DNA of 64,000 nucleotides from Candidatus Woesearchaeota archaeon (GTDB lineage: Archaea > Nanobdellota > Nanobdellia > Woesearchaeales > GW2011-AR9), in contig JABHQW010000005.1 of NCBI GenBank assembly GCA_018696595.1, forward strand, positions 1-64,000, written 5' to 3'. Position 1 is the first letter of the stretch. Each line of letters begins with the position of its first letter. This document shows positions 24,044 to 45,061 of this stretch, one piece after another. Under the pieces are notes generated by a model that worked only from the letters and a program-made list of their open reading frames with translations, was not told where the DNA came from and searched no databases. The translations under genes and the position numbers were made by a program.

Positions 24044-24235
24044 ATGGAAATAATCAAGATTGTATGGAAAGATAATGGAAAAACAAAGATTGCTAAAGGT
24101 AGTCTTATTGAAGAAGATAATTCATTTATCACCGTAGCATCTGAAAGTGGGGATAACATTTCTGTTTCAAAATCATTTATTGTTTCTATAAAGAGATACA
24201 ATAAAATATTTGAGAAAGGTGATTCAAATGCCTGA
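24044..24235 (+). CDS. Small hypothetical protein
   Basis: ORF track. Confidence 0.5.
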   Translation: MEIIKIVWKDNGKTKIAKGSLIEEDNSFITVASESGDNISVSKSFIVSIKRYNKIFEKGDSNA

Positions 24236-25190
24236 CTCAATACAAATAATGTCTCTTAGAAATCTTATTGAAAGTGATATTCCAGAGCCAGAATGGTGGG
24301 TTAAAGATATTTTACCGAAAAGAGGAACTACTATTATAGGGGGCGATAGTGGAAATAAAAAAACATTTCTTGCATTAGAAATTGCAATTAAATGTAGTAC
24401 TGGGGGAGATTTTCTTGATATGTTTGAATGTAAAAAAGCTAAAGTTCTATATATTGATGAAGAGAATGATAAATCTTTAATTAAATCAAGAATGATAAAA
24501 TTATTGAAAGGAAATCAAATATATGAAATTCCCAATCTTCTTGCTTTTGCTTTTGGAAATCAATTAAAATTAAATAAAAAAGGTAAAGGTTTATTAGATA
24601 AATTATTAACTGAATATAAACCAGATATAGTAATCTTGGATTCTATGGTTCGTTTTATTGAGGGGGATGAAGATAGGTCTTCAGATGTAAAAAAGAATAC
24701 TGGCGTTTTGAAATTTTTAACAAATAAACATAATTGTAGCTTTCTTGTATTGCATCATACTACTAAAAGAAAACCTGGAAGTAAACATTCTCTTAGAGGA
24801 TCAGGGGAATTTTCAGCATTTGTTGATTTATTGATAATGGTGAGTGGAACTGTTAACTTAAAGCTTAAACAAGAAAAAAATAGATATGATGGTGCAGTCG
24901 AGATTGGAGGATTTGAATTAATTGATTGTGAAAACAATGGTTTGAAAGTTGTTTCCATTGAAATTGATAAAAATACAAAGACTAAATTTGAGCAATCAAA
25001 AGAGATAATACCCAAATGGATTTCAGAAAAGAAAGTGTCACAGAAAGTATCTTTTAATGATATTTGGAAATATATGGAATCAAAAGGGTTCAAGAGAAGT
25101 TTAATTTCTAAAGCTCTTAAAACAATTAGTGAAGAAGGAATATTAGTCAAACATAAACATGGAATTTATGAAATTCCAAAATCCAATTGA
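24228..25190 (+). CDS. RepA/AAA_25-like RecA-fold ATPase with C-terminal winged-helix-like region (start set at MPDSIQ)
   Basis: 'GTTIIGGDSGNKKTFLALEIAIKCSTGGDF', 'VLYIDEENDKSLIKSRM', 'PDIVILDSMVRF', 'SFLVLHHTTK'. Confidence 0.75.
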   Translation: MPDSIQIMSLRNLIESDIPEPEWWVKDILPKRGTTIIGGDSGNKKTFLALEIAIKCSTGGDFLDMFECKKAKVLYIDEENDKSLIKSRMIKLLKGNQIYEIPNLLAFAFGNQLKLNKKGKGLLDKLLTEYKPDIVILDSMVRFIEGDEDRSSDVKKNTGVLKFLTNKHNCSFLVLHHTTKRKPGSKHSLRGSGEFSAFVDLLIMVSGTVNLKLKQEKNRYDGAVEIGGFELIDCENNGLKVVSIEIDKNTKTKFEQSKEIIPKWISEKKVSQKVSFNDIWKYMESKGFKRSLISKALKTISEEGILVKHKHGIYEIPKSN

Positions 25191-26085: not shown

Positions 26086-26105
26086 GGATCTATATTTTTA
26101 GATCC
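26086..26105. promoter_or_regulatory. Palindromic operator candidate 1
   Basis: GGATCTA-TATTTT-TAGATCC. Confidence 0.65.
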
Positions 26106-26118
26106 AAAAAACCAAAAC

Positions 26119-26128
26119 CTTTATATAA
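26119..26128 (+). promoter_or_regulatory. Archaeal TATA box candidate of BREX operon
   Basis: tttatataag about 25 nt before ATG at 26150, consistent with a leaderless transcript. Confidence 0.55.
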
Positions 26129-26148
26129 GGATCTACATTTATAGATCT
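26129..26148. promoter_or_regulatory. Palindromic operator candidate 2
   Basis: GGATCTA-CATTTA-TAGATCT, ends 1 nt before the ATG. Confidence 0.65.
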
Positions 26149-26149
26149 C

Positions 26150-26923
26150 ATGAGTTCAAAAAATGTAACTTTGAATGTGGATTCCAGATTATATGACCAA
26201 TATAGATCATATTGCAGAAAAAATAGAGTATTAGTTTCTCAACAATTTGAAATTATGATGGAAGAAAAGGTTGGTTCTAGTTACAAAAAAGAAAAATCCA
26301 AATCTAAAATTATATCTAATGGAGGTATTAACAAATATGTTGGTTCTTTAACTGGCGAGCCAATTATGATTCATGAGAATAAAATTGTTGCAAACTTATT
26401 ATTAAAAGACCAATCTCCTAGTTCTATTAAGGAACTTGTTGTTCAAGAAAACTTATTTGGATACAAGACCACTAAAAGTATCCCAAAAAGAGTGAATTCT
26501 ATCTTAAAGAGAATAGGAAATCTTGATAATTTATTGCTTAATAAGATTGTTAATGATCTAAGCGGTGATGGAAGAGTTGTAATTTTATATTCTATTTATT
26601 TAAGGGATAGATTATTTAATGAATTATTGAATGAATTGATTATAGAAAAATTTGCTATAAGGGATTTTGAATTTGAAAAGAGAATGATCCAAAAGTTCAT
26701 TAGCGATAAGTCCGAAGATGAGAAAAAGATTCAAGAATTTACTAAAGAAACAAAAGATAAGTTAGGAACTGTTATGTTTAATATTTTAAAGGAAGTAGGA
26801 TTAGTTGTATCACTAGATAAATCATACAAATTACATAATTTAATGATTAGTTCTGAGTTGAGAAATTATTATGAAAATAAAGGAGAAACTAAATTTCTAA
26901 GAAGTTTGGGTGCATCATTATGA
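26150..26923 (+). CDS. brxA: RHH-BrxA fusion: ribbon-helix-helix N-terminus plus BrxA-like (DUF1819) domain
   Basis: N-term 'KNVTLNVDSRLYDQYRSYCRKNRVLVSQQFEIMMEEKV'; then 'ENKIVANLLLKDQSPSSIKELVVQENLFGYKTTKSIPKRVNSILKRI' BrxA-like; first gene of BREX operon. Confidence 0.7.
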   Translation: MSSKNVTLNVDSRLYDQYRSYCRKNRVLVSQQFEIMMEEKVGSSYKKEKSKSKIISNGGINKYVGSLTGEPIMIHENKIVANLLLKDQSPSSIKELVVQENLFGYKTTKSIPKRVNSILKRIGNLDNLLLNKIVNDLSGDGRVVILYSIYLRDRLFNELLNELIIEKFAIRDFEFEKRMIQKFISDKSEDEKKIQEFTKETKDKLGTVMFNILKEVGLVVSLDKSYKLHNLMISSELRNYYENKGETKFLRSLGASL

Positions 26924-27501
26924 AAATTGAAGAACGACTGGATAAGTTAAATGAAAAGTTACAGGAAACTCGTTTTTTAGAAATGAAAGGTCTTGGAAAT
27001 GAAGTTCCTTTTTATATATTTGATTATCCTGCTGAAAAAGAATTGTTAATTAGAGAAACTGTTGCTAAACTTAAAGATTCTTTTTTGAAAAAAGAAATTA
27101 ATATTCTAGAGATAAATTTATATGATTTAGTATTAGGTGTTTTGTTTGAAAGAATTCCTACTGAAAAAATTATTGATTATGAAAAAAAGAAAGGATCAAA
27201 CGAATTACTAAATAAGCTTCGACCTATGCTTAAAATAGATCTTGTTAAAGAAAAAATTGCTTCTCTTTTATCTAAAGAAAAATACAATATTATATTTTTA
27301 ACAGGAATTGGTAATGCTTGGCCATTAATCAGATCTCATAAAGTACTAAATAATCTACAATCTGTAATTAGTAAAATTCCTTTGGTTGTTTTTTATCCAG
27401 GCCACTATACTAAATATGATTTAAATTTATTTGGAAAGTTTAAAGATGCTAATTATTACCGTGCATTTAGATTAATAGATTATGCTGAGGAGGAGAATTA
27501 A
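26920..27501 (+). CDS. brxB: BrxB-like (DUF1788)
   Basis: 'EINLYDLVLGVLFER', 'NIIFLTGIGNAWPLIRSHKVLNNLQSVISKIPLVVFYPGHYTKYDLNLFGKFKDANYYRAFRL'. Confidence 0.85.
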   Translation: MKIEERLDKLNEKLQETRFLEMKGLGNEVPFYIFDYPAEKELLIRETVAKLKDSFLKKEINILEINLYDLVLGVLFERIPTEKIIDYEKKKGSNELLNKLRPMLKIDLVKEKIASLLSKEKYNIIFLTGIGNAWPLIRSHKVLNNLQSVISKIPLVVFYPGHYTKYDLNLFGKFKDANYYRAFRLIDYAEEEN

Positions 27502-27502
27502 A

Positions 27503-30500
27503 ATGGAAAATTCAATAAAAATCAAAGAAATGTTTACAAAAGATATTACACGAGATATTAATGGAGTAATTAAAGTAGATCAAAAGGATGAAAATCATGT
27601 TTATACTGAATTAGATGAATATGTAATCACCCAAGAAACTAGAAAATATTTTGATGTGTTCTTTGAGAGATTTATTGAATCAATAGATAGTCCTACTGAT
27701 AAAATTGGAGTATGGGTTTCAGGATTTTTTGGATCTGGTAAGTCTCATTTTATCAAAATGATTTCATATCTTCTTGAAAACAAGGAGATCAAAGGTAAAA
27801 AACCATTAGAGTTCTTTAAAGAAAAAATAAATGATCCTCAGATAACTAGTAATATTGAAAAAGCAGTAGGAAAAGGAACAAAAGATGTTATCTTGTTTAA
27901 CATTGATTCTAAAGCAAACTCAGCAGGTGCAGGTGCAGAACAAATAGTTAATGTGTTTATGAAAGTATTTAATGAAAAAAGAGGTTATCTTGGTGATGTA
28001 TTTTGGATTGCGGAGTTAGAAGAAGATTTAGATTATAAAGGGCTATATGATAAATTTAAAGAAGAGTTCAAAAAAATATCTGGCAACACTTGGGAATCAA
28101 AAAGAGAAGCATATGCATTTGAACAAGATGCAATCATAGAAGCACTTAATAAAATTGATTATCAAAGTAAAGAGTCTTTAGAAAGATTGTTTGAAAGTGA
28201 TGGAAGTTCTTATTCATTAAGTGTAGAAAAATTTGCTAATAAAGTTAAGAAATATTGTGATAAAAAAGGAAAGGATCATCAAGTTTTGTTCTTAGTGGAT
28301 GAAGTTGGACAATATATTGGAGAAAGTAGCGATTTAATGCTTAATTTACAAACAGTAGTAGAAGATTTAGGAACAAGATTACAAGGAAAGTCGTGGGTTA
28401 TAGTAACATCTCAGGCAGACATAGATACAATTACTAAAGAACAAGTAAAAGGAGGAGATTTTTCTAAGATTCAGGGAAGGTTTGGAAAACCTTTGAACTT
28501 ATCAAGTGCTAATGTTGATGAAGTTATAAAGAAAAGGCTTCTTGAAAAAACTCCAGAAATAAAGAAATCATTAGAATCTTATTATGGGGAGAAAGAAACT
28601 ATTCTTAAAAATTTAATCTCTTTTACACAAGGAACTGCTGAAATGAAAAGCTATTCTTCAGCAGAAGGATTTTCTGAAGTATATCCTTTTGTTCCATACC
28701 AATTTAATTTATTGCAGAAAGTATTTGATCAAATAAGAATCACAGGATTTACAGGAAAACACCTTGCAAAAGGTGAGCGTTCTATGTTAAGTGCGTTTAA
28801 AGAATCAACTGAAAACTTAGTTGAGAATTCAATGGGTATATTAGTTCCTTTTTCAGATTTTTACAATTCAATTGAAAGTTTTTTAGATCCAATAATCAAA
28901 AGAACTATTGATCATGCAAAAGCGAATACTAGATTGAATGAGCAAGATATAAAACTATTAGAAACTTTATTCTTAATTAAACATATTAAAGAAATTAAAA
29001 GTAATGTAGATAATTTAACTGTTCTTTCAATTAACAATATTGATGAAGATAAACTTCAATTAAAGAAAAGTATTATTGAAAGTTTAGATAAGCTTAAAGC
29101 AGAAACATTAATTCATCAATCTGATGATTGTTATTATTTTTTAACAAATGAAGAACAAGAAATTAATAAAGAAATTAAAAATCAAGATGTTGATAGACAT
29201 TCAGTTAGGGATGATATTTTTAATATTGTTTATGATGATATCTGTCCTCCAAAATATGGGATATACCAATTTAATAAAATTCTTGATGATAGAACCAAAC
29301 CAATTCAAAAAGCAGATCTTACAATAAAATTTGTGACTCCTCAATATGTAGAACCAATTTATAGTGATCAACAAAACATTGGTGGAAGTAAACAATGTAT
29401 CATAGATTCAACAGATACTTTGTTAATTATTTTTCCAGAAAATAGTGAGTTTGTAGAACAAATAAAAGAAAATAGAAAAATTAGCAGTTACTTAGCTCAT
29501 AAGTACTCTAATAGTCAACCAGATGTAATTAAAAAAATACTCGATGAGAAAACTGGAGAAAGAGATAAATTAAAAAGTCTTGCAAAAGAAAATATTAGAT
29601 CTAGATTAGTAGAAGCTGAAGTTTATATAGATAATACTAAAGTAGATCTTGATTTTAAAGATCCTGCAGACTTTATTAAAGAAGGATTAAAGATCCTAGT
29701 AGAAAATGTATATAGGAAAGCAGGACACATAACCCAGGAGTATGAAACAGAAGATGATCTTAGAAGAATTCTTCAAAACAATGATATGGAAAAATGGGGT
29801 ATTGGAAATACAACTAATGCTAATGCAATAAAAGAAGTTTTAGATTATATTAAAGCAAATCATGAACAAAATGTAAAACTTTTATTGGGAGAAATAAAAT
29901 CAAAATATACAAAGAAACCATATGGTTGGAAAGAGATGACTATTGCTGGAATTCTTACTATTCTTTACATAAAAGAAGATATTACAATCAAATATCAACA
30001 AGAAGTAGTTAGTTATGATGTAGATAAAGTAACAAAATATCTGTCAAAAAGAGATTATTCTGATAAAATCCGTATTGGTCTTCGTGAAAAAGCTGGAGAA
30101 CAAGAGATAAATGAAGTTAAAAAATTACTTAGAGAATTATTTGAGAAAACAGATATTCCTTCAACTGAAACTGATTTGTATAATTATACAAAAAAAGAAA
30201 TTGATGAATTACAAGCTTTTTGTAGTAGTACTTTGAATGAATATTCAATAAATTCATATCCTGGAAAAGAAGCAGTTGATAAACTTGAGAAATACTTAGG
30301 TGGTTATAAATTTTTAACTGAACCTAGTTTATTACTAAAACATCTTGCAGAAACAAAAGATGAATTTAAAGAGCTTCTTGAAGAAGTTAATCCTGTTAAG
30401 AATTTCTTTAAAAGTACTCAGATTAAGATATTTTCTGAAGGAAGAGAAAAATTAGAAAGATTCGAAAGAAACAAAGTTTATTTGACTGTAAAAGGTAAAA

Positions 30501-31024
30501 CTAACTTTGATGATTTGAAAAAAATAATTGATCTTCAATCACCATACAAAGAAATTAAAAATATTCCTTTACTAACAAAAGGTATAGAAACTGAATTAAG
30601 TTCTGTTGCAAAGGATAAAAAAACTAATTTGATATCTGCAGTTGATAATTCTGTTAAATTAGTACAAGAAGAATTAAACAAGCACACTAAACTTTCTGAA
30701 GACTTTAAGACAGCTATTTTTACAAGATTAAATGATCTTAAAGGAGTATTGGAAAAATCAGAAGATTGTACTCTAATAGTAAGTCAGAAAACAAGAATTG
30801 ACGAAACAAAAGGAACCCTATTTGAAGAAATAAGTCATGAAGTACAAAGAATTGCAGAAGAAGAAGGGAAGAAAGATACTAGAACAACAAAAAGCATTTC
30901 TGGGGGAGAGTTCTTTGGATATCCTAAAACCATTGAAAATGAAGAAGATATTAAAAAATATCTAAAAGAACTAGAAGAAAAACTTAAAGACCTAATTAAA
31001 AAGCAAAATCTGAGGGTTTACTAA
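27503..31024 (+). CDS. brxC: BrxC P-loop ATPase (start set at MENSIKIKEMF)
   Basis: 'MFTKDITRDINGVIKVDQ', Walker A 'VSGFFGSGKSHFIKMISYLL', 'LFLVDEVGQYIG'; order. Confidence 0.92.
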   Translation: MENSIKIKEMFTKDITRDINGVIKVDQKDENHVYTELDEYVITQETRKYFDVFFERFIESIDSPTDKIGVWVSGFFGSGKSHFIKMISYLLENKEIKGKKPLEFFKEKINDPQITSNIEKAVGKGTKDVILFNIDSKANSAGAGAEQIVNVFMKVFNEKRGYLGDVFWIAELEEDLDYKGLYDKFKEEFKKISGNTWESKREAYAFEQDAIIEALNKIDYQSKESLERLFESDGSSYSLSVEKFANKVKKYCDKKGKDHQVLFLVDEVGQYIGESSDLMLNLQTVVEDLGTRLQGKSWVIVTSQADIDTITKEQVKGGDFSKIQGRFGKPLNLSSANVDEVIKKRLLEKTPEIKKSLESYYGEKETILKNLISFTQGTAEMKSYSSAEGFSEVYPFVPYQFNLLQKVFDQIRITGFTGKHLAKGERSMLSAFKESTENLVENSMGILVPFSDFYNSIESFLDPIIKRTIDHAKANTRLNEQDIKLLETLFLIKHIKEIKSNVDNLTVLSINNIDEDKLQLKKSIIESLDKLKAETLIHQSDDCYYFLTNEEQEINKEIKNQDVDRHSVRDDIFNIVYDDICPPKYGIYQFNKILDDRTKPIQKADLTIKFVTPQYVEPIYSDQQNIGGSKQCIIDSTDTLLIIFPENSEFVEQIKENRKISSYLAHKYSNSQPDVIKKILDEKTGERDKLKSLAKENIRSRLVEAEVYIDNTKVDLDFKDPADFIKEGLKILVENVYRKAGHITQEYETEDDLRRILQNNDMEKWGIGNTTNANAIKEVLDYIKANHEQNVKLLLGEIKSKYTKKPYGWKEMTIAGILTILYIKEDITIKYQQEVVSYDVDKVTKYLSKRDYSDKIRIGLREKAGEQEINEVKKLLRELFEKTDIPSTETDLYNYTKKEIDELQAFCSSTLNEYSINSYPGKEAVDKLEKYLGGYKFLTEPSLLLKHLAETKDEFKELLEEVNPVKNFFKSTQIKIFSEGREKLERFERNKVYLTVKGKTNFDDLKKIIDLQSPYKEIKNIPLLTKGIETELSSVAKDKKTNLISAVDNSVKLVQEELNKHTKLSEDFKTAIFTRLNDLKGVLEKSEDCTLIVSQKTRIDETKGTLFEEISHEVQRIAEEEGKKDTRTTKSISGGEFFGYPKTIENEEDIKKYLKELEEKLKDLIKKQNLRVY

Positions 31025-34000
31025 TGAATAATAAGAAAACTTCATTATTTGCTGATACTTTAAGAGAGAAATTAAGAGCTGAAGTAATTGCAAAAGCTGG
31101 CAAATTAGGTTTTACATCATCAGGTATAGCTGATGTTAAAGAATATGAAGATTCAATAATTATTAATGGGCAAGTATTTGGAACAGATCTAAAAAAACAA
31201 AGAGCAGAATTTAAAGAAGTTATTCTAAAGAAAGGATATGAAGTTGTTATTGATGAAATTACTTATACTTGGTTTAATAGATTAGTTGCTTTAAAGTTCA
31301 TGAGTGAAAATGGATATGTTCCAATTAAAGTATTTAGTAGTTCTATTGAAGGAAATGCTGAACCAGATCTTCTTACAAACTGCCTTGACATAGATTTTAT
31401 GCAAATAGACAAAAAAAAGTTATTAGAACTTAAAACTGCTGGAGATGACGAAGAACTCTATAAGTTCTTAATATTATCATTATGTAATCATTTGAATACA
31501 ATCATGCCTTTCTTGTTTGAAAAAATAGCTGATTATACAGAACTAATGTTTCCAGAGAAATTATTACGAACAGATTCTATATTAGTGGATATTAATTCAA
31601 TAATTCCAACAGAAGATTGGAAAGAAGTAGAAGTAATTGGATGGTTGTATCAAGATTATATTAACCCAAGAAAAGATGAAGTATTTGCAAAACTAAAGAA
31701 AAATGTTAAGATTTCAAAAGAAAATATTCCTGCTGCAACTCAATTGTTTACTCCTAAATGGATTGTTAAATATCTAGTTGAAAACTCAGTTGGCAGATTA
31801 TGGTTAGAATCAAATCCAAATGCTGATTTGCAAAGTAAATTAAAATATTTTATTGATCAAGAATTTGAAGTTCCTTCTGATAAAGTTGTTTCTCCTGAAG
31901 AAATAACAGTATTAGATCCTGCAATGGGATCAGGACACATGCTCGTATATGCATTTGAAGTTTTATTTAATATTTACAAATCTCAAGGATATACTGAATC
32001 TGAAATTGCACAAACAATAATTAATGAGAACTTGTATGGCCTTGAAATAGATAACAGATCAACACAACTTGCAGGATTTGCAGTAGTAATGAAAGCAAGA
32101 GAATATGATAAGGACTTATTTTCAAAAGAAATTGATCTTAATCTAGTAGCAATACAAGAAACACCATTAGAATGTCCAATAGATGAGAAAAAATATCCAG
32201 AACTTTCACATTTATGGAAGTTTTTTTACGATGCAAAGAACTATGGATCCATCTTGAATGTAGAAGGCTATGATTTCAATAAAATAGATGAAGAATATTT
32301 ATCTTTTATCAAAAGTTATTCCTTAACAGCACACTTTGATAGAGAACTAATTGCAGGAATCATTAAACAAGCAAAGATCATGAGTGCAAAGTATGATGTG
32401 GTTGTTACAAATCCCCCTTATATGGGGACTAAGGGAATGAATATTGATTTAAGAGATTATGCAAAAAAACATTTCCCAAATACTAAATCAGATTTGATGA
32501 CTATTTTTATGGAAAAAGGACTTCTGCTGTGTAATAAACGAGGTTATATGGCCATGATTAATATACCTTCGTGGATGTTTTTATCAAGTTACACATTATT
32601 CAGAAAAGAATTACTTTTAAATAATTATATTTCATCAATTTTGTTAAATGGAAGGGGTGTTTTTGGATCAGATTTTGGATCTGTAACATTTGTTTTTAAA
32701 AAGGAATTAATTAATAAAAACAGTATATTTCGAAAATTATATGATAATCCTGTATCTGTAAGAAATAATGAAGTTATCAAATCAATCTTTTTAAATAAAG
32801 AGGATAAACGATATATTTTAAAACAAGAATCTTTTTTAAAAATACCAGGTAATACTTTTGCATTTTGGATTTCTGAAAAAATATTAGATCATTTTGAGAA
32901 ATGTACCCCCTTAAGAAATGAATCAGTACCGAGGCAAGGTTTAGCTACAGGCGACAATGATTCTTTTTTAAGATTTTGGCAAGAAATATCTCTAAAAACA
33001 ATTTCATTTAATTCAAAAGATATTAATACCTTTCATAATTCTAATAAAATGTATGCTCCATATAGTAAAGGGGGAGAATTTAGAAAATGGTATGGCAATA
33101 ATGAATTATTAATTAAATTTGATAAAAATTCATTTGAAAAATTATCAAATCAAGGAAACAATTTACCTTCAAAACAATATTATTTTAAAGAAGCACTAAC
33201 TTGGTCATTTATAGGTAGAACTGCTCTAGGTGTGAGATATAGAAAAAAAGGATCAGTTTTTGATGTACAAGGTTCTTCAATATTCCCAAAGTCTCAGATG
33301 ATTTTATACATACTTGGATTTATGTGCTCTAGATTAGTTAATGAATTTATTTCTATTTTAAATCCTACTATGAGTTTCCAAGTTGGCAACATCGGAGATT
33401 TACCAATAATCTTTCCATCTGATGACGCAATAAAACAAAAGATTGATCAACTAACTCAAGAGAACATCGACATCTCAAAAGAAGAATGGGATTCTCGAGA
33501 GACTTCTTGGGATTTTAAGGTTAACGAATTAATCAAACATAAAGATGAGTCTAATAAGTTAGATGTTGCTTTTAGAAACTATTGTGAGTATTGGAAAGAG
33601 AAGTTTTTCAAGCTACACAAAAATGAGGAAGAACTAAACCAGTTATTCATAGATATTTATGATCTTAATGATGAGCTTGACAATAAAGTTCCTTTAAATG
33701 AAATTACTATTCTAAAAGAAGAGTCTGAGATTAAAGATGATCAATTAGTTTTCAAAAAAGAAGTTATTGTTAAGCAATTCTTGTCATACATTGTTGGTTG
33801 TATGTTTGGAAGATATAATCCTGAAAAAGAAGGGTTAATACTTGCTAATCAAGGAGAAACAATAAGTGATTTTCCAATACAATCTCAGTTTAAACCAGAT
33901 GATGACAATCTCATCCCAGTAACAGATAAAGATTATTTCCCTGATGATATTGTTGGAAAAGTAAAAGAGTTCCTAAAAACATATTTCGGAGCAAACAATA

Positions 34001-34449
34001 TTACTGAAAATTTAGATTTTATAGCATCAGGACTCAAGGGATCTGGATCATCTGAAGAAAAGATTAGAAGATACTTCCTAAAAGACTTCTTTAATGATCA
34101 TAAAAAGACATACAAGAAAAAACCTATTTACTGGTTGTTTACATCTGGAAAAAATCAAGGTTTTAACACATTAATCTACATGCACAGATACAATAAAGAA
34201 TTATTGGCAAAAATGAGAATGGATTATTTACATGAATTACAAGGTAAGATAGAAGCAAATATTAGCACAATTAGAGATGATGATGCAAGATCACAAAGAG
34301 AAAAAGAAGATTTGTCAAGACAATATGAAGAGATGAAGAAGTATGATGAATTATTGAATCATAAAGCTTCAGAATATATCGAGATTGATCTAGATGATGG
34401 CGTAACAGTTAATCATGCTAAATTCAAAGATCTTGTGGAGAGTATTTAA
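31024..34449 (+). CDS. pglX: PglX/BrxX adenine-specific DNA methyltransferase
   Basis: 'TVLDPAMGSGHMLVYAFEVL', 'YDVVVTNPPYMG', 'FTPKWIVKYLVENSVGRLW'. Confidence 0.93.
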   Translation: MNNKKTSLFADTLREKLRAEVIAKAGKLGFTSSGIADVKEYEDSIIINGQVFGTDLKKQRAEFKEVILKKGYEVVIDEITYTWFNRLVALKFMSENGYVPIKVFSSSIEGNAEPDLLTNCLDIDFMQIDKKKLLELKTAGDDEELYKFLILSLCNHLNTIMPFLFEKIADYTELMFPEKLLRTDSILVDINSIIPTEDWKEVEVIGWLYQDYINPRKDEVFAKLKKNVKISKENIPAATQLFTPKWIVKYLVENSVGRLWLESNPNADLQSKLKYFIDQEFEVPSDKVVSPEEITVLDPAMGSGHMLVYAFEVLFNIYKSQGYTESEIAQTIINENLYGLEIDNRSTQLAGFAVVMKAREYDKDLFSKEIDLNLVAIQETPLECPIDEKKYPELSHLWKFFYDAKNYGSILNVEGYDFNKIDEEYLSFIKSYSLTAHFDRELIAGIIKQAKIMSAKYDVVVTNPPYMGTKGMNIDLRDYAKKHFPNTKSDLMTIFMEKGLLLCNKRGYMAMINIPSWMFLSSYTLFRKELLLNNYISSILLNGRGVFGSDFGSVTFVFKKELINKNSIFRKLYDNPVSVRNNEVIKSIFLNKEDKRYILKQESFLKIPGNTFAFWISEKILDHFEKCTPLRNESVPRQGLATGDNDSFLRFWQEISLKTISFNSKDINTFHNSNKMYAPYSKGGEFRKWYGNNELLIKFDKNSFEKLSNQGNNLPSKQYYFKEALTWSFIGRTALGVRYRKKGSVFDVQGSSIFPKSQMILYILGFMCSRLVNEFISILNPTMSFQVGNIGDLPIIFPSDDAIKQKIDQLTQENIDISKEEWDSRETSWDFKVNELIKHKDESNKLDVAFRNYCEYWKEKFFKLHKNEEELNQLFIDIYDLNDELDNKVPLNEITILKEESEIKDDQLVFKKEVIVKQFLSYIVGCMFGRYNPEKEGLILANQGETISDFPIQSQFKPDDDNLIPVTDKDYFPDDIVGKVKEFLKTYFGANNITENLDFIASGLKGSGSSEEKIRRYFLKDFFNDHKKTYKKKPIYWLFTSGKNQGFNTLIYMHRYNKELLAKMRMDYLHELQGKIEANISTIRDDDARSQREKEDLSRQYEEMKKYDELLNHKASEYIEIDLDDGVTVNHAKFKDLVESI

Positions 34450-34450
34450 G

Positions 34451-37024
34451 ATGGCAAATGTAGAAAAAACAATAAAAGGATTACTATCTAAATTTAACGC
34501 CAGAGAATCTTATGAAACTAGAAAAATTGTTTTTTGGTATGATACAGATAAAACAGCAAAAGAAGAAGATATCAAAGAAATTCAATCAGAACTAGAAAAA
34601 CAAGATATTAAAATAGTAATCTTAAAAAATAACTTTTTTGAAATAAAAAAGATTATAGAACATGACAATCCAGAATCTAACTTCCTAGTTTATTCTCAAG
34701 AAAACGAAAAGAAATATGAAGAAAATTGGTTATTAGATGTTCAATTATACTCAACAAGGTTTGAAAATAGCCGAGTTGCAGATGTAAAAAGTATTTTTAA
34801 TATAGATGGATCCAAATTGGATAAATTTATTGATGCACATTATAACTTTTTTCAAAGCAAAACAAGAGTTGAGCTATTAATACAACTCTATCATCCCTCA
34901 TGGGATGAAAGTGATTTTGAAAAAGGATTATTAGCAGTTATAACAAGAACAAAAGTTCTTGATACAAATAGTATTGTTAGGAATTTATTAATAAAGTCAT
35001 TAGAAGAACAAGAAAATGAATTTTGGTTGGATATTGAAAAGTATAACATTTCTTCTTCGTTTTGGGATTTAGTAAAAAATACTTATGGATATAAATCAGA
35101 TTATCCAAAGCTATCAAAATTATTTTATAGTTTTATAGTAACACATATTGAATATCATACAAAAACAATCCTTAAAGGATATAATTCATATATTAATGAA
35201 AGAAAAAATGATTGTGAAGTATTTTTAAACAGTTGGATTAGAGATTCTGAAAATCTAAAAGCATATCAAGAATATGCATCTCATTTTGAAGAATCAAATT
35301 TTGATGATTTAAGATCTCAATTTGATAAAAAGACTAATAAGGATATCTGTGAGGCTGAAGCATTGGAATTCTTTGATAAAGCTTTGATCATAAACATTTC
35401 AAATCAGTTGTCTAATAATGGTCAGAATTATTCATCATATAAAGAATTAATAGAACATAGAAAAGGAAAGGTTTGGTATAAAAATTATAAGCCAGTATAT
35501 CAAGCATTAGATAGTGCTATTTCTTTATTTGAATTTATTTCAGGAGAAAAGATTGATCCTAATTCATTATCTAAATTATATTCCTTATACAAAACTAAAT
35601 ATCATAAAGCAGATTATTATTATAGAAAATTCTATGAGCATTTTGATCAATGTAAAAGTGACATACTTAAGAAGAAATTGCGTTCTGAAGTAGAAAAGAT
35701 ATATCATAACAAATTTTTAGATAGATTTATTGAAATTTGGACAAATGCAGTAACTTCTGAAAATAAAAAGGATTGGAGTATTGGATCTAATTCAACACAA
35801 AATGAGTTTTATGATTTGTATGTTAAAAAGTATGCATCTAAAAAAAATAAAGTAGTAATTATAATTTCTGATGCTTTGAGATATGAAGTTGCAAATGAAT
35901 TAAAAAATAAATTAAATGTCCAATTAAGGGGGTCAACAGAGATTAAAGACTTAGTTGGAGTAGTTCCTTCTTGTACTAAAATTGGTATGGCTTCATTATT
36001 ACCTCACAAAACTTTAAACTATAATCAAGGAACAGTATCCTGCGATGGTATTAACACTCAAGGAATCAAAAATAGAGAAAAAATACTACAAAACAAGAAT
36101 AATGATTCAATAGCAATTAATTACAAAGAATTAATTAGACTAACACGACAACAAACAAGAGATTTATTTAGAGGAATGAATGTAGTATACATTTATCATA
36201 ATAAGATTGATGATGTTGGTGATAATGCTAATTCAGAAAATGAAGTATTTAGTGCATGTAAGAATGCAATTGATGAAATAAAAACTTTAATCAATGATTT
36301 AACTAATTCAATTTCATTAGCAAATATAATTGTAACTGCAGATCATGGGTTTATATATAAGAGAGAAACATTAAAAGATGTAGATAAAGTTGAATTGAAC
36401 AGATTTAATAGAACAAATATTGTTGATTCTTCAAAAAGATATGTTGTTACTAATGAAAATATCGATATGGATAATGTTCATAAATTCTCGTTAGATTATG
36501 CAGAAGGAGATCTTTTAGTATATGTACCTAAAGGTAATTTGAGATTTAAAACTCAAGGTGCTGGAGTTAACTTTGTTCATGGAGGAATAACTCCTCAAGA
36601 AATAACAATTCCTGTCTTAGTGTATAAACATACTAGATCTGACAAAGATTTAGATAAAAAGAATGTTAAACATGGATATGTGAATGTAACTTTATTAAAT
36701 ACTTCTAGAAAAATAACCACTAACATAACTCCAATTAACTTGTATCAAACTGAGAAAGTAACTGAAAAATTAAAACCAATTAAATGCAAAATTTCTTTGA
36801 TTGATCCAGATACTAAAGAAAAAGTTAGTGATGAAAAAACATTAATTATTGATAGCGGTTCAGAAAATCCAGATAGAAGAAAATACAATACAAATCTTAC
36901 ACTTAAATCATCTGTTGAAAATAAAAAACATCTATTAAGGATATTAAAAGTTGAAGAGGAAAAAGAAGAATTAATTCAATTTGATATAGATTTAGCTATG
37001 ACAAATGATTTTGATGATTTTTAG
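34451..37024 (+). CDS. pglZ: PglZ alkaline-phosphatase-fold protein (start set at MANVEKTIKG)
   Basis: 'KVVIIISDALRYEVANEL', 'IIVTADHGFIYKRE', 'FVHGGITPQEITIPVLV'. Confidence 0.92.
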   Translation: MANVEKTIKGLLSKFNARESYETRKIVFWYDTDKTAKEEDIKEIQSELEKQDIKIVILKNNFFEIKKIIEHDNPESNFLVYSQENEKKYEENWLLDVQLYSTRFENSRVADVKSIFNIDGSKLDKFIDAHYNFFQSKTRVELLIQLYHPSWDESDFEKGLLAVITRTKVLDTNSIVRNLLIKSLEEQENEFWLDIEKYNISSSFWDLVKNTYGYKSDYPKLSKLFYSFIVTHIEYHTKTILKGYNSYINERKNDCEVFLNSWIRDSENLKAYQEYASHFEESNFDDLRSQFDKKTNKDICEAEALEFFDKALIINISNQLSNNGQNYSSYKELIEHRKGKVWYKNYKPVYQALDSAISLFEFISGEKIDPNSLSKLYSLYKTKYHKADYYYRKFYEHFDQCKSDILKKKLRSEVEKIYHNKFLDRFIEIWTNAVTSENKKDWSIGSNSTQNEFYDLYVKKYASKKNKVVIIISDALRYEVANELKNKLNVQLRGSTEIKDLVGVVPSCTKIGMASLLPHKTLNYNQGTVSCDGINTQGIKNREKILQNKNNDSIAINYKELIRLTRQQTRDLFRGMNVVYIYHNKIDDVGDNANSENEVFSACKNAIDEIKTLINDLTNSISLANIIVTADHGFIYKRETLKDVDKVELNRFNRTNIVDSSKRYVVTNENIDMDNVHKFSLDYAEGDLLVYVPKGNLRFKTQGAGVNFVHGGITPQEITIPVLVYKHTRSDKDLDKKNVKHGYVNVTLLNTSRKITTNITPINLYQTEKVTEKLKPIKCKISLIDPDTKEKVSDEKTLIIDSGSENPDRRKYNTNLTLKSSVENKKHLLRILKVEEEKEELIQFDIDLAMTNDFDDF

Positions 37025-37036
37025 GAGGGTAAAAAA

Positions 37037-39067
37037 ATGGTCGAACAAGATACTGATATAAAATTAAACGAAGTATTTGCAGGAAAAGTAGTGAGGAAAG
37101 ATTTAACTAAAACTTTAGGTAAAAGTGAAAATGTTCCAATATATGTAATAGAGTATCTTTTAGGGCAATATTGTGCAACTGATGACGATAATATCATAAA
37201 AGAAGGATTACAAAAAGTTAAAAATATTTTAGCAGATAACTTTGTTCGACCAGATGAAGCTGAAAAAGTAAAATCAAATATCAGGGAAAAAGGATACTAT
37301 ACTGTCATTGATAAAGTCACAGTTAAATTAAATGAAAGACGAGATGTTTATGAAGCAGAATTTTCAAATTTGGGATTAAAGGGTGTTGAAGTAGAACCAA
37401 ATGATGTTAAAAGATTTGAAAAACTTCTTTGCGGAGGTATTTGGTGCATTCTTAAAATAAGCTATTCAACTGAAGAATCTAAAAATCCATTTATTATTGA
37501 AAGTTTAAAACCAATTCAAATTGCTAGTATGAAAATTCAGGAGTTTATAGATGCGAGGGAAAAATTCCAGACTGAAGAGTGGATTGATGTTATTTTAAGA
37601 TCTATAGGGATGGAACCAACTCAATTAGAAGAGAAAACTAAATGGCATATCCTGGAAAGACTTGTACCTTTAATAGAGAATAATTATAATTTAGTAGAAC
37701 TTGGCCCAAGAAGTACAGGAAAATCTCATGTTTACAAAGAAATTTCTGCCAATTCTATTTTAATGTCTGGTGGTCAAACTACAGTTGCAAATCTATTCTA
37801 TAATATGTCCACTAGAAAAATAGGTCTTGTGGGTTATTGGGATGTAGTTGCATTTGATGAAGTTGCAGGAATGAACTTTAAAGATAAAGATGGAATTCAA
37901 ATCATGAAAGATTATATGGCATCAGGATCATTTGCAAGAGGAAAAGAGGAAAAGAATGCTAATGCTTCAATAGTATTTGTAGGTAATATTAATCAAAGCG
38001 TTTCATCATTGTTAAAAACTGCACATCTATTTCAACCATTTCCAGAATCTATGAATAATGATAGTGCTTTCTTTGATAGGATTCATTACTATTTACCTGG
38101 ATGGGAAGTTCCAAAATTTAAACCAGAACATTTCACAGATAGATATGGATTTATTGTTGATTATTTTGCAGAATTTCTAAGGGAAATGAGAAAAAGAAAT
38201 TTTAGTGATCAAATTAGTAGCTATTTCAAACTTGGTAATAACCTAAATCAAAGAGATGTAATTGCAGTTACAAAAACATTCTCTGGATTAATGAAATTAT
38301 TGTATCCTAATCAAAAAGCAACTAAAGAAGAAATACAACAAGTTCTTGAATATTCACTTGAAGGGAGAAGAAGAGTGAAAGAACAACTAAAGAGAATGGG
38401 AGGGATGGAATTCTTTGATGTTAATTTTTCATATATAGATAATGAAACTTTAGAAGAACATTTTGTAAGTGTGCCTGAATCAGGAGGAAACAAATTAATT
38501 CCTGAAGGAGTTATGAATCCAGGACATATATTCACAGTAGGATATGCTAATGGTACAAAAATAGGTGTCTATAAACTTGAATTACAAGTAGTTAATGGAA
38601 CAGGAAAATTTGAAAAATCTGGTTTAAACTCTAATGCCAAAGCAAAAGAAGCCGCAAATACTGCAATAAATTATTTTAAAGCAAATGCTAAAAACATTAG
38701 CCAAATGATCAAGTATAAAGAAAAAGATTATTTCTTACACATACAAGATCAGTATGGTGTTGGTCTAACTTCAGACATTGCTCTTGCATACTTCATTAGT
38801 TTATGCTCTGGATCATTAAATAAGCCAGTAGATGAACAATTAGTGGTGTTAGGTACTATGACTATAGGTGGATCTATTAATTCAATAGAGAACCTAGCAG
38901 ATCAATTACAAATATGTTTGGAAGCAGGAGCAAAGAAAATATTATTGCCTATGTCTTCTGCAGGAAAAATGTCTTCAGTACCTCCGGAATTATTTAGTAA
39001 ATTTCAAATTGCATTTTATTCAGACCCAATAGATGCAGTTTACAAAGCATTGGGGTTTAATCATTAG
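37037..39067 (+). CDS. brxL: BrxL, Lon-like AAA+ protein
   Basis: 'NLVELGPRSTGKSHVYKEIS', 'WDVVAFDEVAGMNF', C-terminal Lon-like 'VLGTMTIGGSINSIENLADQLQICLEAGAKKILLP'. Confidence 0.92.
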   Translation: MVEQDTDIKLNEVFAGKVVRKDLTKTLGKSENVPIYVIEYLLGQYCATDDDNIIKEGLQKVKNILADNFVRPDEAEKVKSNIREKGYYTVIDKVTVKLNERRDVYEAEFSNLGLKGVEVEPNDVKRFEKLLCGGIWCILKISYSTEESKNPFIIESLKPIQIASMKIQEFIDAREKFQTEEWIDVILRSIGMEPTQLEEKTKWHILERLVPLIENNYNLVELGPRSTGKSHVYKEISANSILMSGGQTTVANLFYNMSTRKIGLVGYWDVVAFDEVAGMNFKDKDGIQIMKDYMASGSFARGKEEKNANASIVFVGNINQSVSSLLKTAHLFQPFPESMNNDSAFFDRIHYYLPGWEVPKFKPEHFTDRYGFIVDYFAEFLREMRKRNFSDQISSYFKLGNNLNQRDVIAVTKTFSGLMKLLYPNQKATKEEIQQVLEYSLEGRRRVKEQLKRMGGMEFFDVNFSYIDNETLEEHFVSVPESGGNKLIPEGVMNPGHIFTVGYANGTKIGVYKLELQVVNGTGKFEKSGLNSNAKAKEAANTAINYFKANAKNISQMIKYKEKDYFLHIQDQYGVGLTSDIALAYFISLCSGSLNKPVDEQLVVLGTMTIGGSINSIENLADQLQICLEAGAKKILLPMSSAGKMSSVPPELFSKFQIAFYSDPIDAVYKALGFNH

Positions 39068-39075
39068 ATGTTAAA

Positions 39076-42000
39076 ATGACAAACGAAATAAAAACTCAAG
39101 TGGATAAAGCATGTGTGATACTTGCAGGTGCAGGAACTGGTAAATCTTACACTATTAAACAAAAAGCCAAATATCTCGTTGAAGAATTAAAGTATAATCC
39201 TGAAGAAATCCTTTGTCTTACTTTTTCAAATGAAGCAACTAATTCACTAAAGAAAGGAATGCAAGAAGAGATTAATTCAACAGAAGATGTTGATGTTAAA
39301 ACATTTCATGCATTTTGTGCAGATATATTAAGAGAAGAAGGTCATTTAGTTGGCGTTCAAGAAGGTTTTGAGATATTGCTTCCTGATGATGCTAAGATTT
39401 TTATGCATAAATATTTAGAAATTAAACCTTATTGGTCAAACAGATACATAAACACAATATCTACTGCAAAAGATTTTGGTATTAGTATAGATGATATTAA
39501 AGGACATTTGAATAAATTAAAAGAGAACTTGTCTGGAGATAATCTTGAAGAACAAACAACTGAAATGAAAGTTGAATTAAAAACTCTTTATCTTGAAGAA
39601 AACACTAAAGAACTTAGGGAGCGAAAAAAAGAAATACAACAATTCTTGAAGGGATTTGATAATTATTCTAGATTAAAAGAATTTATCAAAGCATGGGATG
39701 ATTTTGACAATTTAAAAAAAGAAAAAAATTATCTTGATTTTTCAGATCTTAATTTTTTTACATTAAAATTATTTAGAGAATTTGGTGCAAAAAAAGATAA
39801 ATACAAATATGTATTTATAGACGAATTTCAAGATACAAATAAATTACAATTTGAGTTAATAGAATTCATTGCAGGACAAAATATCACAGTAGTTGGAGAT
39901 CCAAATCAATCAATTTATGGGTTTAGAGGATCGTATAAAGAAAGTTTTGAACATTTTAAGAAAGTTTTCAAAGTAGAAGAAGTTCATAAACTTGATAAAA
40001 GTTGGAGATCACCAAATCAAATTCTTAATGCATCTCATGAATTAATAAAAAATAATTATGAAAATCCTGAAGATTGTATTAACATTCAAAATGCTAATGG
40101 GGATGAAGGCGATAAAGTTAATGTAATTGAACTTGTAAATAAATATGAAGAAGCTAGATATATTGCTGATTTAGTGCAGAAAAAGATAGATGAAGGAATT
40201 TCTAAAGATGAAATTTGTATTCTTCATAGAACTCATAAACAAGCTGAAGAAATAAAAAAAGCATTAGAACTTAAGAACATACAATTTATTTCAGCAGGAA
40301 AAATAGATCTACTTCAAAAAAGAGAGATAAGGACAGTAATAGGATATTTAAGCATATTATCAAATTTAATTAATAGATCTGGTACTGGGGAACAGTCATG
40401 GTGGGATTTATTTCATTTTCAAAATACATTAAGTCCAGAAGACTCAGTTAAAATTGGAAGATATCTTAAAAAACATAACAAACATGAAATGCCTATAGAA
40501 GATCAAATAGGGATCGATGAATTATTATTAAATTCTATCTCAGAGTTGAACCTATCGAATGAAGCAAAAGTAATTATAAAAAGAGTAGTTGATCTGTTAA
40601 GAGAAATACTTAAATCTTCAAACAAGCCATTACCAGAGATAATCCTTGATATATTTGAAATTTCTGGATTGAATAGGGCTTTTAGTCATCAAAGAAATAT
40701 TCAGAACATTGAAAGTTTAATGAATTTAAAAAAATTCTATGAAATTGCGAAGAATTATTATAATTTACATGAAAAAAATCTAACTGAATTTATTAAGTAT
40801 CTAGAAATGGTTGACACTTTAGGAGTTAGTATAGATGCATCAAAAATATTACACATTGATGCTGTTAGATTAATGACGATTCATGCGTCAAAAGGATTGG
40901 AATTTGATGTAATTATAACTTGTAATCTTGCAAAAGATAGATTCCCTGTTGGTAGGACAAGGAATGAACCATTAATTCCTAAAGAATTGTTACCAGATTT
41001 CAAGGCACAAATAGATGATTGGAAAGAAGAAGGTCTTAATGAAAAGGAAATTGAAAAGAAAATAAAAGATTATGATAAGTCTATTCAATTATTTGAAGAA
41101 AGAAGACTTTGTTATGTAGCTTGGACTAGGGCTAAGAAGGAATTACATTTAACTTATGCAAGAAGTTATAATGATGAACCAGATTCAACGACAAAATCAA
41201 TTTTTTTAGACGAAATAAAATATACTGAAACTTGTGAATTTGTAAAAGATGATGAAGAAAAATCATTATTGATTGCACCAAATTCTAATTATGAAATTTA
41301 CAAATCTATGTTAAAAAATCAATTAATGAACTCTTTAGATACTGAAGGCGTAGATGATTTGAAGAAAAGATTAATCACTTATTTGGTTTGTAGGGATAAA
41401 AAATTAATTGAGGATGATTCATCAGATAAAGCTGAATTACAAAGGCATTTAGATAAATGTAATGAAGATGTATCTGGAATTAAATTTAATTCTTCAGATT
41501 TTACATTTAGTCCAACAGCATTAATTGAATATTCGGAATGTCCAAAAAAGTTTGAACTTAGCAAGATATATCAAATGCCTCAAAGAGGAGATTTTGAATC
41601 AGACGGTGGAGGGGCATCACTTGGATCTTTTATTCATAAAGTCTTAGAATTAGGAGTAGATCAAAAAACAGACAAATTGGAAGGATATATTGAATTAGCA
41701 AAGAAATTAGTTAAAGATAATGAATGGGAATCAATAAATATTAATGATGCAATTCCTTTAATTGAAATATTCTGGGAGAGAAATAAAAATAAAATAAATG
41801 AAAACTCCAAAACTGAATTAAAACTGCCTGTAGAAATCGAAGGTTTTAGATTTTTTGGCCTTGCAGATAGAGTAGATACATTGGATGATGGAACAGTTGA
41901 AATTGTGGATTATAAAACAAATAAAGATGCGATACCTCCTAAAAAAAGGGCATTGCAATTAGGTTTTTACGCATTAGCTCTTCAATCAAAAGGATTCAAA

Positions 42001-42252
42001 GTTTCAAAATTAACATTAGATATGTTAAAACTTGATAAACCAATTGAAATGAAAATTGAAGGTGATGAAGTTATTGCAGTATTGGGTTGTAATAAATCAG
42101 CCAATTTCAAATTATCAGAATTAAAAGCAGAAATAGTTGAATTAACAAAAAGTATAAAGAACGATTATGAACATTCGTTTGATTGTACTGATGATGAAAA
42201 TTCATGTAGATTTTGTGGGTATAAATTTTATTGCCCTAAGTGGGATGAATAA
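39076..42252 (+). CDS. UvrD/RecB-like SF1 helicase fused to Fe-S PD-(D/E)XK nuclease domain
   Basis: 'VILAGAGTGKSYTIKQKA', 'YVFIDEFQDTN', 'VVGDPNQSIYGFRG', 'MTIHASKGLEFDVI', 'YVAWTRAKKELHL'; C-term 'SPTALIEYSECPKKFEL', 'VEIVDYKTNKD', 'CRFCGYKFYC'. Confidence 0.9.
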   Translation: MTNEIKTQVDKACVILAGAGTGKSYTIKQKAKYLVEELKYNPEEILCLTFSNEATNSLKKGMQEEINSTEDVDVKTFHAFCADILREEGHLVGVQEGFEILLPDDAKIFMHKYLEIKPYWSNRYINTISTAKDFGISIDDIKGHLNKLKENLSGDNLEEQTTEMKVELKTLYLEENTKELRERKKEIQQFLKGFDNYSRLKEFIKAWDDFDNLKKEKNYLDFSDLNFFTLKLFREFGAKKDKYKYVFIDEFQDTNKLQFELIEFIAGQNITVVGDPNQSIYGFRGSYKESFEHFKKVFKVEEVHKLDKSWRSPNQILNASHELIKNNYENPEDCINIQNANGDEGDKVNVIELVNKYEEARYIADLVQKKIDEGISKDEICILHRTHKQAEEIKKALELKNIQFISAGKIDLLQKREIRTVIGYLSILSNLINRSGTGEQSWWDLFHFQNTLSPEDSVKIGRYLKKHNKHEMPIEDQIGIDELLLNSISELNLSNEAKVIIKRVVDLLREILKSSNKPLPEIILDIFEISGLNRAFSHQRNIQNIESLMNLKKFYEIAKNYYNLHEKNLTEFIKYLEMVDTLGVSIDASKILHIDAVRLMTIHASKGLEFDVIITCNLAKDRFPVGRTRNEPLIPKELLPDFKAQIDDWKEEGLNEKEIEKKIKDYDKSIQLFEERRLCYVAWTRAKKELHLTYARSYNDEPDSTTKSIFLDEIKYTETCEFVKDDEEKSLLIAPNSNYEIYKSMLKNQLMNSLDTEGVDDLKKRLITYLVCRDKKLIEDDSSDKAELQRHLDKCNEDVSGIKFNSSDFTFSPTALIEYSECPKKFELSKIYQMPQRGDFESDGGGASLGSFIHKVLELGVDQKTDKLEGYIELAKKLVKDNEWESININDAIPLIEIFWERNKNKINENSKTELKLPVEIEGFRFFGLADRVDTLDDGTVEIVDYKTNKDAIPPKKRALQLGFYALALQSKGFKVSKLTLDMLKLDKPIEMKIEGDEVIAVLGCNKSANFKLSELKAEIVELTKSIKNDYEHSFDCTDDENSCRFCGYKFYCPKWDE

Positions 42253-42271
42253 AATTATTAATAATTAAGAG

Positions 42272-42514: not shown

Positions 42515-42520
42515 ACAAGT

Positions 42521-43424: not shown

Positions 43425-43769
43425 TCAGACTTTTATCACGATGGGGCTTTTTGGAATTTCATCCAGATTGATTATTTGCCAACCTCTACGCTTCCAATGT
43501 ATGACTAATCTTGATTTTACTGGAGGATTTGCTTTAGCTGTATCAATTAATTTCTGAAGTTGCTCTTTCATCTTTGTATCAACAGTCAGTTTTTCTTGTG
43601 AAGTGCTTTTCACTTCATCCAGATAGACTTGACCATCTTCAACAGAGATTACATCACAAACACCGAACTGTCCACAGCCACTTCCAGCAATCCTTTGTGC
43701 AAAACCAGAGCAATTCACAATCTTAACATATTTTCTTTCAGAGTCCTTGATATGTTTTTGTGAAATCAT
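43425..43769 (-). CDS. Hjc/PD-(D/E)XK-like nuclease
   Basis: 'VCDVISVEDGQVYLDEVKSTS' D-Xn-ExK pattern; ATGA overlap with recombinase. Confidence 0.55.
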   Translation of the reverse strand: MISQKHIKDSERKYVKIVNCSGFAQRIAGSGCGQFGVCDVISVEDGQVYLDEVKSTSQEKLTVDTKMKEQLQKLIDTAKANPPVKSRLVIHWKRRGWQIINLDEIPKSPIVIKV

Positions 43770-45061
43770 TTTTGCACCTCTACAGATTCTTGAGCTTCTT
43801 GAATCAATTTTGTGTTTTCACTAATGTCTCGATTCATTATTTTCATCAATTGCTCTTTTATTGCTGGATTTTGCAACAATTCCATAAGTGCTGGTTCGTA
43901 TCTTTCAAAGCCACTAACTTTTTTCTTGTAGTTGCCTACTTTGTCTGTAAGCATTTTGTTTTCAATTATTAGTTGATCGTTGATTAATCTTTCATCCATT
44001 GATTCAGATTGAAGTATTGCTCTTTCCGAAGAAAATATTTCGTTCATAACTTCAGAATTTTTTACTCCAGCTCTTTTGTAGTAGATGTCTGGTACTCGAC
44101 TTGCAAGATTCCAACCAAATCTGTAGCAAAAGTTTTGGTATGTCTTGATTCTTGTTGCGTAATAGGTGGCACTTGATGCCCTGATTCTGTGTGGAGTTAC
44201 ACTTTTACCTAAAACTTTCATTCCTTTTTGATAAAGTTTGGTTCGTATTGCATCATAGCTGTAATTAAACAAGTATGCTTCTTTGTTGTTTGGGTCTGTA
44301 TGATGTTTTTCAATATACTTTAACAAGTAAATGCTTGACAAGTATAATCCTATGGTTCTTCCATTGCCACTTTTTGCAATTGAGTTTGTTATGTTTATTG
44401 AAACATATCTTGCTTGTGCATTTGGATAAACTATATCTTTAATTTTTAGGTTAAGAATCTCGTTTATCCTTGCTCCAGAATCAAACATTAACATTACTAA
44501 AGTTTTCATCTTGAATTTGGTGAATGAATCTTTCATCAATTGGAGTTCATCTATTGAGTAGATTTGTCCTTCTGGTCTTGGTTCGTAAGTATCCATCCAT
44601 ACTACTTCTTTTGGATAAAATTCATTTTTGCCTTTTAGCCATTTCCAAAATTTTCTTATGACTTTCTTGATGGTTGCTTTAGTTGTTTCTGCATATTCTT
44701 TTCCAGTTAATGGTGATACAAGGATTCCATCTTCCAACTTTTCAACAAAATCTCTCATATCTTGTTCGTTTATTTCTCTGAACTCTTTTCCTTGCATCCA
44801 TCCATCAAAATTTCTTAAAATGCCCATTACTCTTAATGCTCGGCTTTTACCTATTGACCTTTTTTCTTGCTTTTTAGAGGGGTCACCAGTTCGCATATCT
44901 CTTAAATAATGCAAAATGTCACTTTTGTTCACACTTTTACTATCTTCAAAGAATTTAGTTTTGGCTTTATCGTACACAGATTCGTGGTCTTGTATCCATC
45001 TTCGCCCATTTTTGCCTATTCTATCTACTACTGTTTCTACAATTTGTACTTTAGTTTCCAT
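43766..45061 (-). CDS. Tyrosine recombinase/integrase
   Basis: 'FDSGARINEILNLKIKDI', 'TPHRIRASSATYYA', 'VPDIYYKRAG' catalytic R, HxxR, Y. Confidence 0.88.
   Translation of the reverse strand: METKVQIVETVVDRIGKNGRRWIQDHESVYDKAKTKFFEDSKSVNKSDILHYLRDMRTGDPSKKQEKRSIGKSRALRVMGILRNFDGWMQGKEFREINEQDMRDFVEKLEDGILVSPLTGKEYAETTKATIKKVIRKFWKWLKGKNEFYPKEVVWMDTYEPRPEGQIYSIDELQLMKDSFTKFKMKTLVMLMFDSGARINEILNLKIKDIVYPNAQARYVSINITNSIAKSGNGRTIGLYLSSIYLLKYIEKHHTDPNNKEAYLFNYSYDAIRTKLYQKGMKVLGKSVTPHRIRASSATYYATRIKTYQNFCYRFGWNLASRVPDIYYKRAGVKNSEVMNEIFSSERAILQSESMDERLINDQLIIENKMLTDKVGNYKKKVSGFERYEPALMELLQNPAIKEQLMKIMNRDISENTKLIQEAQESVEVQK

Follow-up and report, generated by a model that had tools for sequence, protein, structure and literature searches.

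A woesearchaeal genome carries a complete type-1 BREX locus whose first gene encodes a BrxA with an N-terminal extension: a domain that modeling predicts to be ribbon-helix-helix-like (RHH), followed by a disordered linker. The window is the whole stretch of DNA that was analyzed, 64,000 nucleotides from contig JABHQW010000005.1 of a Candidatus Woesearchaeota archaeon, and the fusion gene lies at 26150-26923 on its forward strand. The reading we favor, with a probability of roughly 0.72, is that the protein both takes part in BREX and regulates its own operon. The domains and linker, the complete operon, the palindromes flanking the TATA box, the homology to a family of small leader proteins and the recurrence of the fusion in a second genus are shown. 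Dimerization, DNA binding, repression and titration are inferred, and there are no binding, dimerization or expression data.

The 257 aa open reading frame is confirmed, running from the ATG at 26150 to the stop codon ending at 26923. The BrxA family (PF08849) matches residues 62-243 (E=7.6e-37, 127.3 bits against a gathering cut-off of 23) and PADLOC also recognizes BrxA (5.5e-39). Residues 1-61 are covered by no BrxA model, and Pfam finds BrxA alone in the fusion protein, with no WYL domain. In the full-length AlphaFold2 model, two helices (residues 12-24 and 31-41) are followed by a linker with pLDDT below 50 and by a confident BrxA domain, which Foldseek matches to 3BHW and 7ZGE (E 9e-8 and 1e-7, TMt 0.82-0.85) and which has the all-helical double helix-turn-helix (HTH) fold of these structures. 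On the forward strand, the RHH domain (residues 1-42) occupies 26150..26275, as delimited by homology to stand-alone proteins of 44-55 aa and by AlphaFold2 and Foldseek; the flexible linker (residues 43-58), read from both the translation and the DNA, occupies 26276..26323; and the BrxA domain (residues 59-257 plus the stop) occupies 26324..26923. Folding used alignments A3 and A7, made separately; when MAFFT aligned RHH and BrxA rows jointly, it misplaced the BrxA starts, and that alignment was left out. A further alignment (A6) excluded two rows from plasmid records. The start codon at 26150 is supported by the stand-alone homologues, which begin at the identical residue. Neither the translation nor the DNA holds an ATG, GTG or TTG between the RHH domain and the point where the conserved BrxA domain begins, and BrxA with its conserved start can therefore be made solely as the fusion.

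The nature of the N-terminal domain rests on prediction. When folded with 40 homologues it reaches a mean pLDDT of 81 and a pTM of 0.50, with helices at 12-24 and 29-46, and its structural neighbors in the PDB (Arc, CopG, StnY, VapB, AmrZ, CdbA, TacA, MatP, PrpA) are nearly all RHH proteins. The Foldseek E-values of the individual RHH neighbors are weak (best 1.7), as expected for a domain of only about 45 residues. The sequence has a strand-helix-helix pattern with a conserved "KNITLxV" strand segment; the beta-strand itself is unformed in the monomer model, and we infer, without data on dimerization, that it would form only in the dimer. No RHH family of Pfam is reached above cut-off by the N-terminus or its relatives. 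Below the cut-off, members of the family give weak hits to RHH_5, RepB, CcdA, RelB, ParG and BrnA, and there is a weak profile match to protein 56B (2KEL, E=0.2); the N-terminus alone finds nothing informative in Pfam, PHROGs or the PDB sequences. Weak hits of family members to Pox_D5 and P3A were taken as chance. The call of an RHH fold is thus based on the consistent list of neighbors, the strand-helix-helix pattern and the weak RHH-type Pfam hits of the relatives. We take the missed cut-off to reflect a profile threshold and not a biological feature, but it leaves the fold call weaker and still open. The domain resembles the Arc/CopG/MetJ repressors and protein 56B in its length of about 45 residues, its strand-helix-helix order and its structural neighbors, and it differs from those repressors in lacking a family-level Pfam match and in being fused to a subunit of a defense complex. 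The first-pass annotation had read the first ~45 aa as an RHH motif and the remaining ~190 aa as BrxA/DUF1819: the second claim holds, and the first holds as a model, the result that would have overturned it (a structure prediction without an RHH fold) not having been obtained.

That the gene leads an archaeal BREX operon, as the same annotation proposed, is also confirmed. The genes brxA, brxB, brxC, pglX, pglZ (type A) and brxL lie together on the forward strand in that order, as an overlapping operon. After the fusion gene come brxB (26920..27501; PF08747 2.4e-42, PADLOC 2.5e-70), which overlaps brxA by 4 nt, brxC (27482..31024; NF033441, 1153 bits), the BREX-1 adenine methyltransferase gene pglX (31024..34449; NF033452, 1258 bits), BREX-1 type A pglZ (34415..37024; TIGR02687, 795 bits) and brxL (37037..39067; TIGR02653, 1156 bits). 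A UvrD-family helicase with a C-terminal PD-(D/E)XK nuclease (39076..42252, forward strand; PF00580, PF13361, PF12705) begins 8 nt past brxL and, judging from this spacing, is probably co-transcribed with BREX. The successive gaps from brxA through the helicase gene are -4, -20, -1, -35, +12 and +8 nt. UvrD-type helicases or related ATPases also stand beside BREX genes in some Methanosarcinaceae loci (L010 489-3278, L022 4-1800, L008 1632-4245), and such a helicase could be an accessory of archaeal BREX.

The locus is bracketed by a RepA-like AAA_25 ATPase, probably a mobile-element gene (24210..25190, forward strand; PF13481 4.8e-25), and by a tyrosine recombinase, or integrase (43766..45061, reverse strand; PF00589 1.3e-9), and the BREX stretch has 26-29% G+C versus about 31-34% on both flanks. 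For these reasons it looks like an acquired island. Relatives do not share it: among 382 sampled genomes of the phylum, BrxA exceeds the family cut-off only in the source genome, a 1.19 Mb draft. A search for attachment sites around the island gave no direct repeat, the window holds no tRNA, and no WYL or other regulator gene was recognized between the promoter and the integrase. A Hjc-like nuclease accompanies the integrase among the mobile-element genes at 42265-45061, with the RepA-like ATPase on the other side.

The N-terminal extension is not a usual part of BrxA. It is absent from all 66 other BrxA frames taken from BREX loci, which begin at the BrxA domain. When the fusion is aligned with 25 other BrxA rows, the family starts at an invariant Tyr63, and the extension is common only to the protein from one further genome (G182); plasmid BrxAs align from residue 63 only. 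Among Thermoplasmatota, the phylum of the nearest archaeon with a BrxA (L015), the BrxA frames measure 131-223 aa. The claim that known BrxA is a stand-alone protein therefore stands, and the possibility that typical BrxA proteins share the segment is ruled out for those compared. A search for the same fusion in other genomes yielded this one additional case, from another genus of the same family. Its contig (C35) ends inside the gene, retaining residues 1-82, and the rest of BREX was not found in the assembly (no BrxL, no PF08849 match). The two fusions are 90% identical over the first 58 residues, the linker carrying substitutions without a stop or a shift, and their DNA is 87% identical over 441 bp, promoter included. 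No close RHH homologue was found in phage records, nor beside other BREX loci (best E=0.18). A TIGR04540 protein encoded just upstream of brxA in Bacillus was considered as a stand-alone counterpart and rejected, as it belongs to a different family with no evident sequence resemblance.

The loci with the closest BrxC, at about 47-59% identity, come from Methanosarcinaceae and a related MAG (L007-L014, L016-L022 and L025, in genomes G400-G407 and G409-G416). They have brxB-brxC without an adjoining PF08849 BrxA, and no such BrxA occurs anywhere in these 16 genomes; Methanosarcinaceae-type BREX may lack a recognizable BrxA or possess a very divergent one. In Pseudanabaena (L055/L091, genome G418), brxB-brxC stand without an adjoining brxA, and a BrxA match lies elsewhere, on a contig of equal length (58.9 kb).

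The extension has relatives that are separate proteins. Stand-alone frames of 44-55 aa match the first 59 residues of the fusion with up to about 60% identity, and profile matches at E<=1e-6 occur in 154 of 382 genomes of the phylum, with at least one in each. The DNA surrounding 63 of these matches was taken, and the 30 nearest with a Pfam-scanned downstream gene were counted. A restriction-modification (R-M) gene lies directly downstream in 18 of them, versus 0/27 among the upstream neighbors (Fisher p=2.9e-7). This value overstates independence, since some loci are related by descent, and the upstream stretches were only about 700 bp long. The R-M partners include C5, N6/N4 and EcoRI-type methylases, HsdM, HsdR/ResIII, Mrr, NgoPII, a type IIG-like enzyme, PLD-helicases and a HARE-HTH/PD-(D/E)XK endonuclease. 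The other 12 downstream genes comprise three helicases or nucleases (UvrD, Schlafen-type, PDDEXK), two Bro-N proteins, two surface proteins and five without a Pfam match. In most R-M cases the next start is within 14 nt of the leader's stop codon, usually with an overlap (1-14 nt), so a single lost stop could create a fusion. A tree of 61 RHH domains places the BrxA copy within a clade of 24 rows (support 93/88) made up mostly of leaders of R-M or nuclease genes, apart from the group that precedes surface proteins, although with only 47 columns its inner forks are weak. The simplest history is that a defense-leader gene standing before brxA lost its stop codon. The window would then hold a defense-leader RHH regulator, probably specific to this lineage, fused to a core protein of BREX; its regulatory role is inferred and not shown.

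Several members of the RHH family deserve separate mention. A sister group of leaders, of the AIMLSKKVELWMKKE type, precedes large secreted surface proteins of 1038-1496 aa (L193 in G246:C13, L194 in G362:C1, L139, L147, L150 and L163), and two of them read in frame into the surface protein. The frames of G246 and G362 that enter large ORFs were accordingly rejected as defense fusions; the G362 surface protein possesses a Met of its own and a signal-peptide-like stretch right at the junction. In another locus (L141, G430:C112:1-300), an RHH leader is in frame with a downstream N6/N4-methylase gene, homologous to those of L132, L133, L195 and L199, and cut by the contig end; this is possibly a second fusion of leader and effector. 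Finally, genes without a Pfam match follow defense-type leaders in L124, L135, L137, L143 and L155. They are candidate new defense genes, for which the leader is a practical marker.

Two near-identical palindromes of 20 bp each (GGATCTAtATTTtTAGATCC and GGATCTAcATTTaTAGATCT) flank a TATA box just before the start codon of the fusion gene. The first (GGATCTATATTTTTAGATCC) lies at 26086..26105. The TATA box (TTTATATA) is on the forward strand at 26120..26127, 30-23 nt ahead of the start codon, and the second palindrome (GGATCTACATTTATAGATCT), at 26129..26148, ends 1 nt ahead of the ATG, the distance between palindromes being 43 bp from start to start. With up to 2 mismatches, the pattern recurs at no other position of the 1.19 Mb genome, and a reversed control pattern has no site at all. 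The second fusion genome keeps the TATA box, the spacing and both palindromes, as AGATCTACATTTTTAGATCT and AGATCCACATTTATAGATCT; the first shows a symmetric change at both ends relative to the window, and the second matches at 18/20 positions. A single palindrome of equal quality is not rare in such AT-rich DNA, being matched in 15 of 200 shuffles, and the case for operators therefore relies on the two copies, their placement, their uniqueness in the genome and their conservation, not on the strength of either palindrome. Both remain candidate operators, inferred from sequence without binding data. In the stand-alone RHH genes, a TATA box stands at a comparable position, followed just after by a recurrent ATATGTGCANATATTT-like sequence that is strongly palindromic in some leaders (L125, L127 and L136, for example, with 0-1 of 200 shuffles as good). 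It is likely, again by inference, that leader genes in general carry an operator after the TATA box. The operator-like sequence of BREX differs from the family-typical ATATGTGCANATATTT, which counts against the regulator reading. GATC is present in all four half-sites of the BREX palindromes and kept in both genomes; elsewhere the window has only a single group of four GATC within 64 bp.

From these elements an autoregulation model can be proposed. The RHH half would dimerize and thereby make BrxA a dimer, which would bind both palindromes from one side of the double helix, as 43 bp correspond to about four turns. The bound protein would block the TATA box and the start site, repressing its own operon. 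Since the repressor would also be a BREX subunit, repression would track the pool of BrxA not built into BREX complexes. Assembly of BREX components on invading DNA would then deplete the free BrxA and lift the repression of the operon. The weak points of the model are the low Foldseek scores of the RHH domain, the absence of any Pfam match above cut-off and the truncation of the second fusion by a contig end, without the rest of BREX.

The main rival explanation is that the RHH domain serves BREX itself, by dimerizing BrxA or by adding grip on target DNA, and has no part in transcription. Known BrxA already has two HTH motifs and binds dsDNA (PMC9240713), DndE of another modification system scans DNA via RHH domains (PMC10853773), and the flexible linker would permit such a role. 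However, the palindromes are found genome-wide only at the BREX promoter, which regulation fits better, and the homologues are separate leaders ahead of unrelated R-M enzymes. We consider this rival unlikely. Less plausible still is a neutral accident, in which a leader lost its stop before brxA and the RHH domain is now either dead or working as before. The few-base overlaps of leaders with the next gene make fusion easy, and the leader of L141 also runs into a methylase gene at a contig end, but the RHH domain and linker remain open and similar in two genera, both palindromes are kept, and BrxA is made only in fused form. An antitoxin-like role, in which the small RHH proteins would restrain the downstream enzyme and not the promoter, is likewise hard to credit. 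RHH proteins are common among type II antitoxins, and the family has weak Pfam matches to CcdA, RelB and BrnA; yet its partners are unrelated to one another (C5 and N6/N4 methylases, HsdM, HsdR, Mrr, NgoPII, PLD helicases), and proteins of roughly 48 aa have no C-terminal toxin-binding segment. The type II arrangement of an RHH antitoxin beside a small toxin is absent too: the gene downstream is brxB in the window, and at other loci it is an R-M gene or another large gene. Lastly, an error of sequencing or assembly joining two genes, conceivable in a draft genome of 8 contigs, is all but excluded by the same junction in the second genome, with 87% DNA identity and linker substitutions without stop or shift, and by the position of the window copy inside an 89.7 kb contig.

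The autoregulator reading can be compared with known systems. BrxA of E. fergusonii (pEFER, PDB 7ZGE) is a monomer with two HTH motifs that binds dsDNA (PMC9240713). The fusion shares its domain, its fold and its position in a type-1 BREX operon, but neither known BrxA nor the 66 compared here have an N-terminal RHH domain. A 2026 survey of BREX domains describes some BrxA with an extra C-terminal wHTH, whose regulatory role is left open (PMC12839542); the terms RHH, MetJ, ribbon and CopG are absent from its main text. The first-pass annotation had credited BREX regulation to separate WYL/BrxR-type proteins, and BrxR is indeed a separate wHTH-WYL-WCX protein that heads its operon and binds a pseudo-palindrome at the BREX promoter (PMC9122589); its loss is toxic in Acinetobacter (PMC9122589). 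Both BrxR and the fusion lead an operon with a promoter palindrome, binding by the fusion being inferred. The putative regulator of the fusion differs in being a small RHH domain held covalently in BrxA, without a WYL or ligand-sensing domain. That the protein is a regulator fused to BrxA, which the annotation called an unusual solution, is supported by the leader family and the promoter palindromes, regulation of BREX by the fusion still being inferred. The stand-alone leaders for their part recall the controller (C) proteins of R-M systems, as genes for small DNA-binding proteins placed just upstream of R-M genes (18/30 here). C proteins are HTH proteins. Their fold is of the Xre type, whereas the leader family models as RHH-like, and they bind their own promoter, while binding by RHH leaders is only inferred. 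The RHH regulators that one review sets beside C proteins (Omega, PaaR) belong to toxin-antitoxin and not to R-M systems (PMC3874152). In the open-licence literature searched, no title or abstract mentions RHH joined to BrxA or R-M operons led by RHH proteins, which is not proof of novelty. A type-1 BREX variant with an RHH-BrxA fusion is probably new, and the small RHH leader family of defense operons may be undescribed as well.

A bolder reading is that a general class of RHH controllers heads many kinds of defense operons in this archaeal lineage, several R-M types and BREX among them, and that in BREX such a controller has become part of a working subunit, the free amount of which would set the output of the operon and make it a titration-type sensor of BREX engagement. 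We hold it tentatively, the odds being slightly against it. As part of it, the GATC half-sites leave room for a BREX switch that might also read DNA methylation.

How defense operons spare their own cell is an open question for BREX, and one that seems almost unstudied in the small-genome archaea of this group. The locus described here is a compact and testable case, with a structural subunit and a putative regulator on one polypeptide. Beyond BREX, the leader family suggests that a large archaeal group may have a widespread, RHH-based equivalent of the C proteins of bacteria.
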